This document shows, one piece after another, positions 9,438 through 32,461 of a stretch of DNA of 64,000 nucleotides. Within the stretch, counting starts at the first letter, position 1; each line of letters opens with the position of its first letter. The stretch lies in NCBI RefSeq assembly GCF_900116115.1, contig NZ_FOZP01000010.1, positions 1-64,000 of the forward strand, read 5' to 3'. The position numbers and the translations under genes are program-made. A model generated the notes under the pieces. It searched no databases, was not told the DNA's origin, and saw nothing but the letters and a program-made list of their open reading frames with translations. This stretch comes from Lutibacter maritimus. GTDB taxonomy: Bacteria > Bacteroidota > Bacteroidia > Flavobacteriales > Flavobacteriaceae.

Positions 9438-9450
9438 GATTTTTTTAACC

Positions 9451-10014
9451 GATACTTCTCGATACAATTTTTTTCCATTTCATTTCAAAAAACCACTCGA
9501 AGTGACGACAATAAAACACCGTCAGTTCGAGTGTTTCAATGTAGCTCGGCGGAATTGAAATGTATCGAGAACCAGTAAGGAAAACTTCTCGATACAATTT
9601 TTTTCCATTTCATGTCAAAAAACCACTCGAAGTGACGTTCATTCATGTCATTCCGACAACGGAGGAATCGCATAAAAAGGCTCAAAATAATGGGATTTCT
9701 CGCTATCGTTCGAAATGACAAGAGGCTTTTCATTTTAACTATAAGATTCCCGCTTACGCGAGAATGACGGACGCAAGGGAATGACGGTGCGTCACCCTCA
9801 GCTTGACTGGGGGTCTGCAACTACAGAGTGAAAGATTCCCGCTTACGCGAGAATGACGGACGCAAGGGAATGACGAAAGAACGTCACCCTCAGCTTGACT
9901 GGGGGTCTGCAACTATAAAGTGAAAGATTCCCGCTTACGCGAGAATGACGGATGCAAGGAAATGACGAAACAACGTCACCCTCAGCTTGACTGGGGCTGT
10001 TGGTTTTAAAGAGT
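9451..10014. repeat. Cluster of dispersed palindromic repeats
   Basis: Two partial copies of the TCGAG/GTCA family (about 9457-9640) are followed by three near-tandem units of about 90 bases beginning near 9745, 9834 and 9926. Each unit pairs an ATTCCCGC..GCGAGAAT hairpin ending in GAC with an ACCCTCAGC..CTGGGGGT hairpin starting with GTC. No gene is supported: the open frame crossing 9536-9820 is made of repeat sequence. Confidence 0.85.
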
Positions 10015-15598: not shown

Positions 15599-16055
15599 CG
15601 TCACTTCGAGTGGTTTTGTGGAATGAAATGTAACAAAATTGTATCGAGAAGCATTACGTAACTGTTCTCGATACACCTCCGTTGCACTTCGGCACTCGAA
15701 CTGACGGTATGTTAAAAACACACCCTCTTACCCACTCTGAAAAGGTAAATTAGACCAAAGAGTAAAAAGATTCCCGTATACGCGAGAATGACGATTTAAA
15801 CGTCACTTCGAGTGGTTTTGCGGAATGAAATGTAACAAAATTGTATCGAGAAGCATTACGTCACTGTTCTCGATACACCTCCGTTGCATTTCGGCACTCG
15901 AACTGACGGTATTTTAAAAACACACCCTCTTACCCACTCTGAAAAGGTAAATTAGACCAAAGAGTAAAAAGATTCCCGCTTTCGCGAGAATGACGATTTA
16001 AACGTCACTTCGAGTGGTTTTGTGGAATGAAATGTAACAAAATTGTATCGAGAAG
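15599..16055. repeat. Tandem 202-bp compound repeat
   Basis: CGTCACTTCGAGTGG recurs at 15599, 15801 and 16003, exactly 202 bases apart. Each full period contains a TCGAG/GTCA palindromic pair, a unique-looking segment with CACACCCTCTTACCC, and one ATTCCCG..CGAGAAT hairpin. The third copy stops after about 53 bases, just before the pyrD stop codon. The copies differ by a few substitutions (for example GTATACGCG versus CTTTCGCG in the hairpin loop). Confidence 0.88.
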
Positions 16056-27913: not shown

Positions 27914-27988
27914 GTCATGCTGAACTTGATTCAGCATCTCATACAACAAGTTAATAATTATGAGACCCTGAATCAAGTTCAGGGTGAC
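27914..27988. repeat. Paired inverted hairpins after the his operon (cargo-less unit)
   Basis: GTC-ATGCTGAA-CTTGA-TTCAGCAT-CTC (from 27914) faces GAG-ACCCTGAA-TCAAG-TTCAGGGT-GAC (27962-27988) across a 20-odd base AT-rich spacer. It has the same GTC-hairpin..hairpin-GAC layout as the repeats flanking the GIY-YIG gene and the 100-bp array, but with nothing between the halves. Confidence 0.85.
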
Positions 27989-29411: not shown

Positions 29412-29476
29412 CTTCAAAAGTTAGAAGTTAGAAGTTAGAAGTTAGAAGTATCAATTGCACTTCTAATATCGTAAAT
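29412..29476. repeat. GTTAGAA heptads and palindrome between hisA and hisF
   Basis: Four perfect plus-strand GTTAGAA units (29420-29447) face ACTTCTAATAT..ATCTAAC to their right, so the spacer can fold back on itself. A related unit lies between hisB and hisH (31260-31320). The hisA stop codon (AGT TAG) falls in the GTTAG at its edge. Confidence 0.75.
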
Positions 29477-30226
29477 CTAACTTTGCATTATAAATTTCTC
29501 TATTTGTTTCATACTAATTTTATGCTCGTAAATGGCTTTACCAACAATAGTTCCTTCGCAACCCATTTCAGCTAAGCGAGGTAATTCATCATACGTTGAA
29601 ATTCCACCTGAGGCAATTAATTTAATCTTCTCAACTGCGCTTGAAGTGACAATGCTGGTTTGATTCAATATTTTTTGATACAAATCAAAAGAAGGCCCTT
29701 GTAACATACCATCTTTAGAAATATCGGTGCAAATTACATAACGCACGCCTTCTTTCATGTAATTTTGAATAAAAGGAATTAACTCTTCATTACTTTCTTC
29801 TTGCCAACCACTTACGGCAACTTTTTCATCCAGCGCATCGGCACCTAAAATAATTTTATCAGCTCCAAATTTTTGCAACCAGCTTTTAAATATGTCAGGA
29901 TTTTTAACTGCAATACTTCCGCCAGTAATTTGATTTGCGCCGCTTTCAAAAGCAACACGTAAATCGTCATCAGTTTTTAATCCGCCACCAAAATCAACAC
30001 TTAAACTGGTATTTGTGGCAATAGTTTCTAATACTTTATGATTTATGATATGACTTGCTTTTGCGCCATCTAAATCTACCAAATGCAAATATTTTACACC
30101 GTGTGCTTCAAACATTTTAGCGACTTCTAACGGATTTTCGTTATATATTTTTTCAGTTGCATAATCGCCTTTTGAAAGACGTACACATTTACCGTTGATG
30201 ATATCTATTGCTGGGATGATTCTCAT
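29477..30226 (-). CDS. hisA: Phosphoribosylformimino-AICAR-phosphate isomerase
   Basis: The isomerase step before HisHF, in a (beta-alpha)8 barrel paralogous to HisF. Seen: [17 protein letters not shown] with the catalytic Asp, [36 protein letters not shown] with the second catalytic Asp, and IASGGIS. 249 residues, normal length. A GIY-YIG gene unit lies between it and hisH, replacing what is usually a short junction in this gene order. Confidence 0.97.
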
Positions 30227-30265
30227 TGTTTTTTCTATATTGAAAGTTTATAGGTGTTTACTTTT

Positions 30266-30291
30266 GTCATTCCTGCGAAGGCAGGAATCTA
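30266..30291. repeat. Left hairpin bracketing the GIY-YIG gene
   Basis: GTC-ATTCCTGC-GAAG-GCAGGAAT-CTA: a perfect 8-bp stem with 4-base loop, 2 bases after the GIY-YIG stop codon. It is in inverse orientation to the hairpin at 30624-30648. Confidence 0.88.
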
Positions 30292-30293
30292 TA

Positions 30294-30608
30294 CTAATCT
30301 TTTAAAGTATCATTAAACCAATCAGAAGAAAGGTCTAACCATTTTTTATTTTCTTCTTCAATTAATTTAATTTTCCAATCTCGTTTCCATTTTTTCAAAT
30401 TCTTCTCTCTTTTTATTGCTTCATCAATACTTTTAAAAGTTTCAAAATACATTAATTTATGTACTCCATACTTTTGCGTAAATCCTTTCACAAGTTCCTT
30501 TTTGTGTTCATAAACTCTTCGCTGTAAATCGTTTGTAATTCCAATATATAATGTTCCTCTTATTTTACTTGCTAAAATATACACATAATATTGATGTATA
30601 GTTTTCAT
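30294..30608 (-). CDS. Small GIY-YIG nuclease inserted in the his operon
   Basis: A 104-residue single-domain GIY-YIG protein of the short YhbQ-like class. The catalytic signature is YYVYILASK (7-15) for GIY and LYIGITND (20-27) for YIG, then LQRRVYEH (28-35) with the catalytic Arg, and the glutamate region DEAIKREKNLKKW (about 62-74). Nuclease activity is inferred. It has no role in histidine synthesis, yet sits in the operon in the same direction between hisH and hisA. Inverted ATTCCTG hairpins bracket it on both sides, so it looks like the cargo of a small mobile unit (30266-30648, 383 bases). No flanking target duplication is visible. Confidence 0.9.
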   Translation of the reverse strand: MKTIHQYYVYILASKIRGTLYIGITNDLQRRVYEHKKELVKGFTQKYGVHKLMYFETFKSIDEAIKREKNLKKWKRDWKIKLIEEENKKWLDLSSDWFNDTLKD

Positions 30609-30623
30609 TTACAATCGTTTTAT

Positions 30624-30648
30624 AGATTCCTGTTTTCACAGGAATGAC
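30624..30648. repeat. Right hairpin bracketing the GIY-YIG gene
   Basis: AG-ATTCCTGT-TTTC-ACAGGAAT-GAC with an 8-bp stem (30626-30633/30638-30645), 15 bases upstream of the GIY-YIG start codon. It mirrors the left copy, so the pair reads GTC-hairpin-CTA, gene, TAG-hairpin-GAC. Confidence 0.88.
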
Positions 30649-30661
30649 AACGTTAATATAT

Positions 30662-31243
30662 TTATAAATTCAAAAAATTTTGTAATATTTGTGATCCTGC
30701 TTTGCTGCTTTTTTCTGGGTGAAATTGTACGCCATAAAAGTTTTTTTCTTGTAATGCAGATGCATATTTTAATCCGTAATTAGTGGTTGCAATAGCTTTA
30801 TCGTTCATTGGAACATAAAAACTATGCACTAAATACATATATTCTTGCTCTTTGATTCCTTTAAATAAATTGGATTTTAAATTTTCAATTTGATTCCAAC
30901 CAATTTGCGGTACTTTTTCTGAATCAGAAAATTTAATAACGTCGCAATCAAAAATACCTAATCCTTGCGTATCACCTTCTTCACAATAGTTACACATTAA
31001 TTGCATTCCTAAACAAATTCCTAAAACGGGTTGTCTTAAAGTTGGAATTACTTTATCTAACCCTGTTGCTTTTAACATTTGCATAGCACTACTTGCTTCA
31101 CCAACACCCGGAAAAATCACTTTATCAGCATTTCTTATTTCCGCTTCATCGTGACTCAAAACTGCTTCATAACCTAAGCGTTGAATGGCGAATTTTATAG
31201 ATTGTATGTTTCCTGCTCCGTAATTTATAATGACTATTTTCAA
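30662..31243 (-). CDS. hisH: Imidazole glycerol phosphate synthase, glutaminase subunit
   Basis: A class I glutamine amidotransferase that feeds ammonia to HisF. The nucleophile is in LGICLGMQLM (residues about 75-84). The catalytic His and Glu are in YGVQFHPEKS near residue 175. IINYGAGN is the normal N-terminus. 193 residues. It follows hisB after a 78-base palindromic spacer. Confidence 0.97.
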   Translation of the reverse strand: MKIVIINYGAGNIQSIKFAIQRLGYEAVLSHDEAEIRNADKVIFPGVGEASSAMQMLKATGLDKVIPTLRQPVLGICLGMQLMCNYCEEGDTQGLGIFDCDVIKFSDSEKVPQIGWNQIENLKSNLFKGIKEQEYMYLVHSFYVPMNDKAIATTNYGLKYASALQEKNFYGVQFHPEKSSKAGSQILQNFLNL

Positions 31244-31259
31244 TTTATTATTTTTAAAA

Positions 31260-31320
31260 GTTAGATATTAGAAGTTCAATTGTAAGATTACCCTCATACT
31301 TCTAATATTTAATATCTTAC
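31260..31320. repeat. Palindromic GTTAGA-type unit between hisB and hisH
   Basis: GTTAGATATTAGAAGT at the left faces ACTTCTAATATT..ATATCTTAC at the right, with CAATTG near the middle. Its layout matches the hisA-hisF spacer unit and it begins directly after the hisB stop codon. Confidence 0.7.
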
Positions 31321-31321
31321 T

Positions 31322-32461
31322 TTACAAAAGTCCTTTGGTGCTTGGCAAAATCATTTTTTCAGCATCTCTTTTAACAGCAGCTTTTATAGCTTTTGCAAAG
31401 GCTTTAAAAATACCTTCAATTTTATGATGTTCATTAGTACCTTCTGCTTTTATATTTAAATTACAACGTGCACCATCTGTAAAGGATTTAAATAAATGAT
31501 AAAACATTTCTGTTGGCATTTCACCAATTTTTTCACGTTTAAAATCTGCATCCCAAACCAACCAATTTCTTCCACCAAAATCTATGGCTACTTGCGCTAA
31601 ACAATCATCCATTGGCAAACAAAATCCATAACGCTCAATACCCAATTTGTTACCTAAAGCTTTTGTAAAAACTTCACCTAAAGCTATCATAGTATCTTCA
31701 ATAGTATGATGCTCATCAACTTCTAAATCTCCTTGTACTTGAATGGTTAAATCCATACTTCCGTGGCGTGCAATTTGATCGAGCATGTGATCAAAAAATG
31801 GCAAACCTGTTGCAATGTTACTTTTACCTGTTCCATCCAAATTTAATTGGATATAAATTTTTGTTTCGTTGGTATTTCTGGTTAATTCAGCTGTTCTATT
31901 ATTTAGTTTTAAAAACTCATAAATTTTCTGCCAATCGTTACTTTCTAAAGCAATAAATGGATCTAATTCAGCTCTTTTAACTGTAATTTCATCGGTACCT
32001 AAATTGGTATTGTCATTTATAAATATTCCTTTTGCACCTAAATTTTTTGCTAATTCTATATCCGTTAATCGATCGCCAATCACAAATGAATTTTCTAAAT
32101 CATAAGCATCAGAAAAAAATTCTGTTAACAACCCAGTGTTTGGTTTTCTTGTTGGTGCATTATCTTTCGCAAAGGTTTTATCAATAAACACTTTATTAAA
32201 TTTGACACCTTCATTTTCAAAACATTGAATTACAAAATTTTGAACAGGCCAAAAGTTTTCTTCGGGCATACTTGTCGTGCCTAAACCATCTTGATTGGTA
32301 ACCATTACCAGTTCAAAATCTAATTCATTTGCTATTTTTCCTAAATAGGTAAATGCTTTTGGGTAAAATATAATTTTTTCAAATGCATCAACTTGTTCAT
32401 CTGCAGGTTCTTTTATAATTGTTCCGTCTCGGTCAATAAATAATACCTTTTTTTTCTTCAT
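31322..32461 (-). CDS. hisB: Bifunctional histidinol-phosphatase / imidazoleglycerol-phosphate dehydratase
   Basis: Fusion enzyme for two steps of histidine synthesis. The N-terminal HAD phosphatase (about 1-165) has FIDRDGTI with both catalytic aspartates, VTNQDG and [13 protein letters not shown]. The C-terminal dehydratase (about 188-379) has the metal-binding [21 protein letters not shown] and [10 protein letters not shown] motifs. ATG 32461 is 2 bases from the hisC stop; an ATG at 32473 overlapping hisC would add four residues. The [14 protein letters not shown] start fits the family better. Confidence 0.96.

Follow-up and report, generated by a model that had tools for sequence, protein, structure and literature searches.

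A GIY-YIG nuclease gene between mirrored CGTC-type REP hairpins in the his operon of Lutibacter maritimus: a candidate mobile unit

The GIY-YIG Gene Between hisH and hisA

In the window, that is, the whole stretch of 64,000 nucleotides analyzed here, the his operon lies on the minus strand, and a GIY-YIG nuclease gene of 104 aa (30294..30608, minus strand; identified from the ORF list and the PF01541 profile) is located between its upstream neighbor hisH (30662..31243, minus strand) and its downstream neighbor hisA (29477..30226, minus strand), both of which were named by recognition of their translations. The gene is bracketed by two TGTC-tagged REP hairpins with outward tags, one at its 3' end (30266..30291, plus strand), 2 bases past the stop codon, and the other at its 5' end (30623..30648, minus strand), 14 bases ahead of the ATG. 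The first-pass annotation of this DNA, which had placed a 104-residue GIY-YIG gene flanked by mirror-image hairpins in the hisH-hisA interval, is thereby confirmed, as is its spacing of 2 bases after the stop; the 15 bases it gave before the start were measured as 14. The hairpin at the 3' end reads GTC-ATTCCTGC-GAAG-GCAGGAAT-CTA on the plus strand (30266-30291), and that at 30623-30648 is its mirror image, with a loop of the TGAAAA type. Their anatomy consists of a TGTC tag, an 8-bp stem ATTCCTGC starting with AT, a 4-nt loop, and a CTA tail. The whole proposed mobile unit, tag to tag, spans 383 bp (30266..30648), and its limits were drawn from the mirror repeat, the gene-less hairpin pairs at the same junction in other genomes, and the tag-to-tag alignment of paralogous units in genome G121.

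The window protein scores 63 bits against PF01541 (cut-off 22.6) in the profile search, and the residues Y10, Y21, G23, R31, E68, and N87, which we take to be of catalytic type, are conserved or nearly so among its relatives. This 104-aa ORF is the sole small GIY-YIG gene found in the source genome (G000, 3.48 Mb), where PF01541 otherwise matches just two open frames, of 603 and 472 aa. Folded as single-stranded DNA, each of the two hairpin stretches is more stable than 200 of 200 shuffles (z of -5.10 and -5.23), and the arms 30264-30306 and 30608-30650 show 79% complementarity along 43 nt. The hairpin pattern has 3 exact matches in G000, two bracketing the GIY-YIG gene and a third standing alone at G000:C9 (L004); when up to 3 mismatches are allowed, there are 6 matches, of which the sole two perfect ones are those bracketing the gene. 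Since two of the three exact matches in 3.48 Mb bracket the GIY-YIG gene, the hairpin pair is more than a chance occurrence.

Mirrored Flanks From the Genus to Other Phyla

A protein match was obtained in 36 of 38 genus genomes, and the genus sample comprised 90 loci with 93 GIY-YIG units after weak, partial, overlapping, or adjacent protein matches had been left out. As a mirror score, the 200 bp upstream of each gene were aligned with the reverse complement of the 200 bp downstream, and windows displaced by 600-900 bp served as the control; displaced windows were used as the null because the hairpins of different loci resemble each other, with 11% of swapped-flank pairs reaching 30. Units with short flanks were dropped (5/93 in the genus, 3/80 in the cross-phylum set), as was 1 of 29 family loci. 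In the genus, a score of at least 28 was reached by 48 of the 88 scorable units versus 3 of 119 displaced windows, and a score of at least 32 by 36/88 versus 0/119, the other 40 of the 88 units falling under 28. Mirrored flanks were also present at 21 of 28 scorable loci in other genera of the family (0/110 displaced windows). The cross-phylum set, which holds the best 80 of at least 558 confirmed relatives and leans to the subfamily of the window, gave scores of at least 30 in 50 of 77 scorable units versus 5 of 429 displaced windows and of at least 40 in 35/77 versus 3/429; 27 of the 77 units stayed under 30, for example, a Sphingomonas locus (L112) at 17. Not every locus shows them, but mirrored hairpins accompany small GIY-YIG genes in the genus, in the family, and across about ten phylum-level groups. 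The first-pass annotation had named the lack of these hairpins at other GIY-YIG loci as the outcome that would speak against it; the reverse was found, matching hairpins flanking other GIY-YIG genes.

Among the many cross-phylum loci with GTC-tagged palindromic ends are those of Bradyrhizobium, a Sphingomonas MAG (L143), and Methylomonas, together with a planctomycete (L124) and MAGs of Chloroflexi (L107), Clostridiales (L139), and Treponema (L127). Many relatives carry CGTC or TGTC tags, and their tails are CCA or CTA, the latter being that of the window. Under a strict test, which required GTC immediately ahead of a stem with 7 or more pairs and no more than 1 mismatch, and outward-pointing tags on both sides, 39 of 163 units (16/88 genus and 23/75 cross-phylum) scored positive versus 1 of 405 displaced windows. 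Six of eight plasmid loci have mirror scores of 36-167; L147, at 15, counts against the pattern, and the score of 17 at L148 is not a fair test, its ORF end being misplaced (300 aa). When the two hairpins belonging to one unit were compared, 57 of 59 stem differences left both paired; as the hairpins were chosen for pairing, this comparison demonstrates no more than differing stems with pairing kept. Up to 23 exact copies of the hairpin pattern per genome occur in the genus and 34 in the family. A search of 50,697 phage records at E 1e-5 gave no match. Near-identical GIY-YIG genes with hairpins were observed in tandem at L194 (G026) and L208 (G007).

Protein Clusters and Their Hairpin Motifs

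When the 93 genus units were clustered by protein and their 200-bp flanks scanned for hairpin motifs, the table of protein cluster against hairpin motif was nearly diagonal. In the cluster of the window, all 7 units have CCTG/CAGG hairpins on both flanks (control windows, 1/28). Palindromes of the CTGAA type or related to it stand on both sides in 17/22 units of the cluster characterized by MKESFVYMLSNK- and MKLSYVYILTNK-like starts (controls, 5/65), and TTGCGA-type hairpins do so in 11/15 units of the MKKSYIYFMANKNNTV cluster (controls, 5/42). For other clusters, the corresponding both-flank counts were 12/24 for the TTCGAGTG type (controls, 6/51), 9/24 for the TGTCGAAG type (8/51), 3/7 for the GGAGGAAT type (1/15), and 4/9 for the GGCTGAGCGG type (0/18). 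Clusters 1 and 2, with 3 units each, showed no motif on both flanks, and 2 of the 3 units of cluster 1 have the CTGAA type on one flank.

Because these motifs were written post hoc from the same flanks, a motif-free test was run. In a Mantel comparison of protein distance with flank similarity, rho was -0.30 for 86 genus units and -0.33 for 74 cross-phylum units, and 0 of 999 permutations were as extreme in either set. The share of genus pairs with a flank match was 89% at protein distances of 0.05-0.3 (n=215), 75% at 0.3-0.45 (n=232), and 13% at 0.45-0.6 (n=713). Displaced flanks gave rho values of -0.05 and -0.02, with 16% and 19% of close pairs still matching, probably through shared position. 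Judged from these sequence comparisons, each nuclease subfamily tends to carry its own hairpin family.

Nuclease Genes and Hairpin Numbers Per Genome

Per-genome hairpin and protein counts were used whole, except that 24 genomes lacking a protein match go unnamed. All 8 genus genomes with a close gene or a remnant of one contain the hairpin pattern (2-23 copies), versus 12 of 30 without a close gene (0-20 copies; Mann-Whitney p 8.7e-5). In the family (149 genomes), the pattern was present in 14 of 15 genomes with a close GIY-YIG gene (E <= 1.3e-34) versus 34 of 134 without one (p 3.4e-7). These 34 genomes, which include G043, G124, G146, G149, and G167 with 17-22 copies each, indicate that the hairpins can outlive a close gene or do without it.

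Y1 transposase genes (PF01797) occur in 20 of the 38 genus genomes and are missing from 18, including G000. Hairpin number falls as Y1 number rises (Spearman -0.60, genus), and no Y1 match was obtained in 7 of the 8 genus genomes that have 12 or more hairpin copies. After 13 of 30 Y1 loci had been dropped on account of contig ends, long ORFs, or short flanks, none of the 17 scored genus loci had any coded hairpin motif on either flank, and 9 of the 17 had mirror repeats of their own. The earlier suggestion of a nuclease family different from RAYT is borne out by both the lack of a Y1 match in G000 and the 0/17 count.

Occupied and Empty Sites

The first-pass annotation would also have been contradicted by a gene always residing at hisH-hisA; instead, among 30 genus genomes in which this junction was compared, the gene is present in G000 alone, and several junctions are nearly bare. 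G006, G008, G029, and G020, whose contig stops short of hisA, have a gene-less pair of the same hairpin family at this spot, and G002 has a decayed one. Elsewhere the junction contains hairpin pairs of different families, an unrelated ORF (G022, G024, G015, G026), or other sequence, and in G036, G037, G019, G017, and G032 it measures just 1-14 bp. Because gene-less pair and gene unit share the hisH-hisA spot, the junction is compatible with insertion of the gene into a pair as well as with its loss from a unit, and a hisH/hisA protein tree does not separate a gain into a pair in G000 from loss in the other genomes.

In the plasmid collection, relatives were found in 33 records. For one Sphingobium junction, the full query including the gene was matched by 7 records, and both of its sides, but not the gene, by 4; three of the seven occupied records and all four gene-less ones were aligned. 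L157 and L158 have neither the gene nor these hairpins. L155 and L156, also without the gene, retain a single symmetric hairpin tagged on both sides, which would be the expected leftover of a deletion between matching stem arms of the end hairpins; at least 5 overlapping double-tagged hairpins appeared in the hairpin-pattern scan of the genus. One of the three occupied copies aligned (L160) has a one-base gap in the gene. On Shinella plasmids (L161, L162), the unit and its hairpins are missing in both relatives aligned, these being 2 of 5 candidate records. Searches for near relatives of the plasmid loci L147 and L150 gave no usable empty site, and a target-site duplication is not definable at hisH-hisA, Sphingobium, or Shinella, the empty sites being too diverged to fix the target. 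At L035 (622-3264), an HsdR-like ORF of 881 aa contains a GIY-YIG unit in frame; stretches that match helicase/ATPase profiles lie on either side of the unit, and the repeat end is translated (PVEG). The comparison of occupied and empty sites suggests that the unit moves, or has moved.

Two further observations concern his genes. One is a second independent insert in a his operon: between genes of G024 recognized as hisC-like and hisB-like lies a GIY-YIG gene that belongs to another cluster and has CCTGAA-type hairpins (L033, 1492-1779). In four genus genomes (L038, L039, L044, L049), a different small ORF, presumably encoding a four-helix-bundle protein, lies at hisH-hisA amid AGAAGTTA/ATATTAGAAG repeats and is possibly another gene-plus-repeat unit; repeats of this type also occur in the window at 29415-29484 and 31245-31326.

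Pairs Without a Gene and Shortened Units

Gene-less hairpin pairs were present at 16 of the 17 loci fetched for them and measure 65-142 bp tag to tag. They recur at unlinked loci with conserved interiors: two pairs in G012 are identical at 132/142 positions, with flanks at 40/97 and 47/88, and the his-operon pair of G006 is identical to another G006 pair at 61/66 positions, with flanks at 48/95 and 53/95. Random 80-mers give identities of 0.495 (median) and 0.544 (95th percentile), so that one flank of the G006 pair lies slightly above this null. L262 (G056) is a row of three units, one of them full and two internally deleted, and all three retain both hairpins; in G121, two unit copies align about tag to tag at 77%. 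From their sequences, the gene-less pairs look like internal deletions of the gene unit, and the gene-less and deleted forms parallel the RAYT-linked REPINs as presented in PMC3116915.

Proposed Mobile Unit and Alternatives

The explanation that we favor, at a probability of roughly 0.7, is that the insert represents an autonomous mobile unit whose GIY-YIG nuclease recognizes its own hairpin ends and also mobilizes gene-less pairs. It builds on the bracketing, the partner specificity, the presence and absence of the unit, the gene-less and internally deleted forms, the commoner hairpin pattern in genomes with a close gene, the conserved catalytic-type residues, and the absence of a Y1 transposase observed above. 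Against it stand the mirror scores below the cut-offs in 40/88 genus and 27/77 cross-phylum units, the 34 of 134 family genomes with the pattern but without a close gene, the few copies (3 exact) in the source genome, the target-site duplication that could not be delimited, and the hisH-hisA spot shared by gene-less pair and gene unit. The first-pass annotation had proposed a minimal mobile unit whose nuclease recognizes and spreads its own hairpin ends; the data support the unit, and recognition, cutting, and spreading are what we infer from it. In the proposed mechanism, the small GIY-YIG gene and the two outward-tagged CGTC-type REP hairpins would form one autonomous mobile unit, in which the nuclease may serve its own hairpin family as a dedicated partner, much as RAYT is held to do for GTAG REPs. 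The protein could recognize the hairpin and its GTC tag in extruded form, in single-stranded DNA or a cruciform, and may cut each of the two hairpins where tag and stem meet. The tag-to-tag segment would then be lost, copied, or re-joined elsewhere by host repair. GIY-YIG enzymes hydrolyze DNA and are not known to form a covalent transposition intermediate, and for this reason host repair would have to complete the move. Cleavage and transposition by the nuclease are predicted from sequence, and the nuclease could likewise act in trans on the gene-less, REPIN-like hairpin pairs.

A different division of labor, which we regard as unlikely, would make the GIY-YIG gene a selfish homing nuclease: it would cleave REP pairs that lack the gene and use recombination to place its own copy there, with the REPs being moved otherwise. 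GIY-YIG proteins include homing endonucleases, and the window protein matches the group I intron GIY-YIG homing endonuclease family NCBIfam TIGR01453 weakly, at 23 bits, under the cut-off of 56.05. The gene does sit between the hairpins of a pair, five genus genomes (one decayed) have a same-family gene-less pair at hisH-hisA, and the matching of subfamilies with hairpins is expected under homing too. However, no other mover is in sight, Y1 transposases being excluded as the flanking partner, and further points against homing are the sites with neither gene nor hairpins (the hisH-hisA junctions of G036, G037, G019, G017, and G032; Sphingobium L157 and L158; Shinella L161 and L162) and the two internally deleted units beside a full one at L262. 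Less probable still is a housekeeping role, in which the nuclease would remove or process hairpins, for example, cruciforms in replication, and stay beside them without moving them. Such a role would suit the nearest solved relatives, which are UPF0213 proteins, the annotation of E. coli YhbQ as a DNA damage response nuclease, and the single symmetric double-tagged hairpins, which look like deletion products; it nevertheless leaves unexplained the gene-less pairs with conserved interiors at unlinked loci, the several gene copies per genome, and the higher hairpin numbers in genomes with the gene. E. coli yhbQ itself has no bracketing hairpins (mirror score 16).

Movement of the hairpins by RAYT/Y1 transposases, with mere clustering near GIY-YIG genes, has next to no probability left, despite the link of GTAG-class REPs to RAYT described in PMC3116915 and PMC3733652 and the presence of Y1 genes in 20/38 genus genomes. 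The Y1 flanks (0/17 loci with motifs) and the Y1 counts (Spearman -0.60; 7/8 hairpin-rich genomes, with at least 12 copies, lacking Y1) rule it out within the genus. Ordinary terminators or regulatory his-operon hairpins that are mirrored by chance deserve equally little credence: both hairpins adjoin coding ends and could affect the his transcript, but two of the three exact copies in 3.48 Mb flank the GIY-YIG gene, and mirrored, subfamily-specific ends recur at unrelated loci. Chance or terminator hairpins are contradicted by the displaced-window and Mantel controls.

Relation to Known Repeat Systems

The CGTC-tagged REPs described by Di Nocera, De Gregorio, and Rocco in 2013 (PMC3733652) include dRS3 of Neisseria and RPE-4/RPE-6 of Rickettsia. 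As defined there, they have an unpaired 4-nt tag, CGTC or often TGTC, a stem of 8-9 bp starting with AT, a loop of 4-5 nt, a tail that is mostly CCA, and many genomic copies. The window hairpins agree in tag, stem, and loop, with TGTC at both outer ends, a stem of 8, and a loop of 4. Shared with the account in PMC3733652 are the CGTC/TGTC tag, the 8-bp AT stem, the 4-nt loop, the short tail, the frequent inverted dimers, and the presence in Bacteroidetes among other phyla; unlike the CGTC-tagged REPs as described in that source, the window hairpins bracket a gene. The REP/BIME frame of the first-pass annotation needs a correction, since the hairpins belong to the CGTC-tagged class and not to the GTAG/BIME class that RAYTs are held to move.

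In the REP-RAYT system, GTAG REPs are linked to RAYT (PMC3116915, PMC3733652). As in the system portrayed in PMC3116915, the partner gene of the present units is flanked by its own REP family, REP doublets occur as gene-less units, and there are several nuclease lineages, each with its own REP. The partner, however, is a GIY-YIG protein and not a Y1/HUH tyrosine transposase, and the tag is GTC, not GTAG. In size and domain, the window protein resembles the small GIY-YIG proteins of the UPF0213/YhbQ type, and the closest solved sequences to the family profile are the UPF0213 proteins PDB 1zg2 and 1ywl (E 1.1e-8 and 6e-6); E. coli yhbQ, in contrast, is without mirrored hairpins. With the GIY-YIG homing endonucleases of group I introns, it shares the catalytic domain and possibly the nature of a selfish gene, but no intron was seen, and the gene lies between REP hairpins.

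According to PMC3733652, the superfamily of CGTC-tagged REPs "apparently lack[s] a dedicated transposase", and their mover, for repeats scattered over several phyla, was left open there in 2013; GIY-YIG has 0 occurrences in that paper. Full-text searching of an open-access library, which covers neither preprints nor subscription papers, yielded no paper linking GIY-YIG to REPs as judged by title and abstract, and priority is not established by it. In the parts available, PMC9465073 merely has a RayT and a GIY-YIG gene in one table, PMC6006769 and PMC12306157 have no mention of GIY-YIG, and PMC12306157 has none of nucleases either. The present data provide a testable candidate mover with ends, cognate hairpins, and gene-less derivatives, and small GIY-YIG genes are a strong candidate for the missing mobile partner of CGTC-tagged REPs. 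Whether they are the general mobilizing enzymes of the whole CGTC-tagged REP superfamily, including dRS3- and RPE-like members, in a bacterial transposition system of about ten phylum-level groups that would rely on a hydrolytic nuclease and hairpin ends instead of a known type of transposase, with nuclease subfamilies co-evolving with their hairpins, is a broader proposition on which we would place even odds. If the candidate mover is right, REP-partner systems arose at least twice from unrelated nucleases, a hydrolytic nuclease performs the job of a transposase, and many genes annotated just as "GIY-YIG nuclease family protein" gain a function.

Other Repeats in the Window and in Neisseria

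The window contains repeats of further hairpin families. A tandem stretch at 15600-16030, with 202 bp from start to start, consists of repeats that begin with GTCACTTCGAGTG and pair with ..CACTCGAACTGACG; they are orphan REPs of another CGTC-type family in a source genome with one small GIY-YIG gene. At 9450-9720, further TTCGAGTG-type pairs occur along with a GTCATTCCGACAACGGAGGAATC hairpin, a third family, for which the source genome likewise has no cognate gene. A gene-less pair of the CTGAA family, CGTCATGCTGAACTTGATTCAGCATCTCAT..ATGAGACCCTGAATCAAGTTCAGGGTGACT, lies at 27914-27988, just past the hisIE-like ORF at the operon end. In a Neisseria gonorrhoeae record (L152), a GIY-YIG relative was observed among GTCATTCCCGC..GCGGGAAT repeats resembling dRS3, the CGTC repeat of Neisseria known from the account in PMC3733652.
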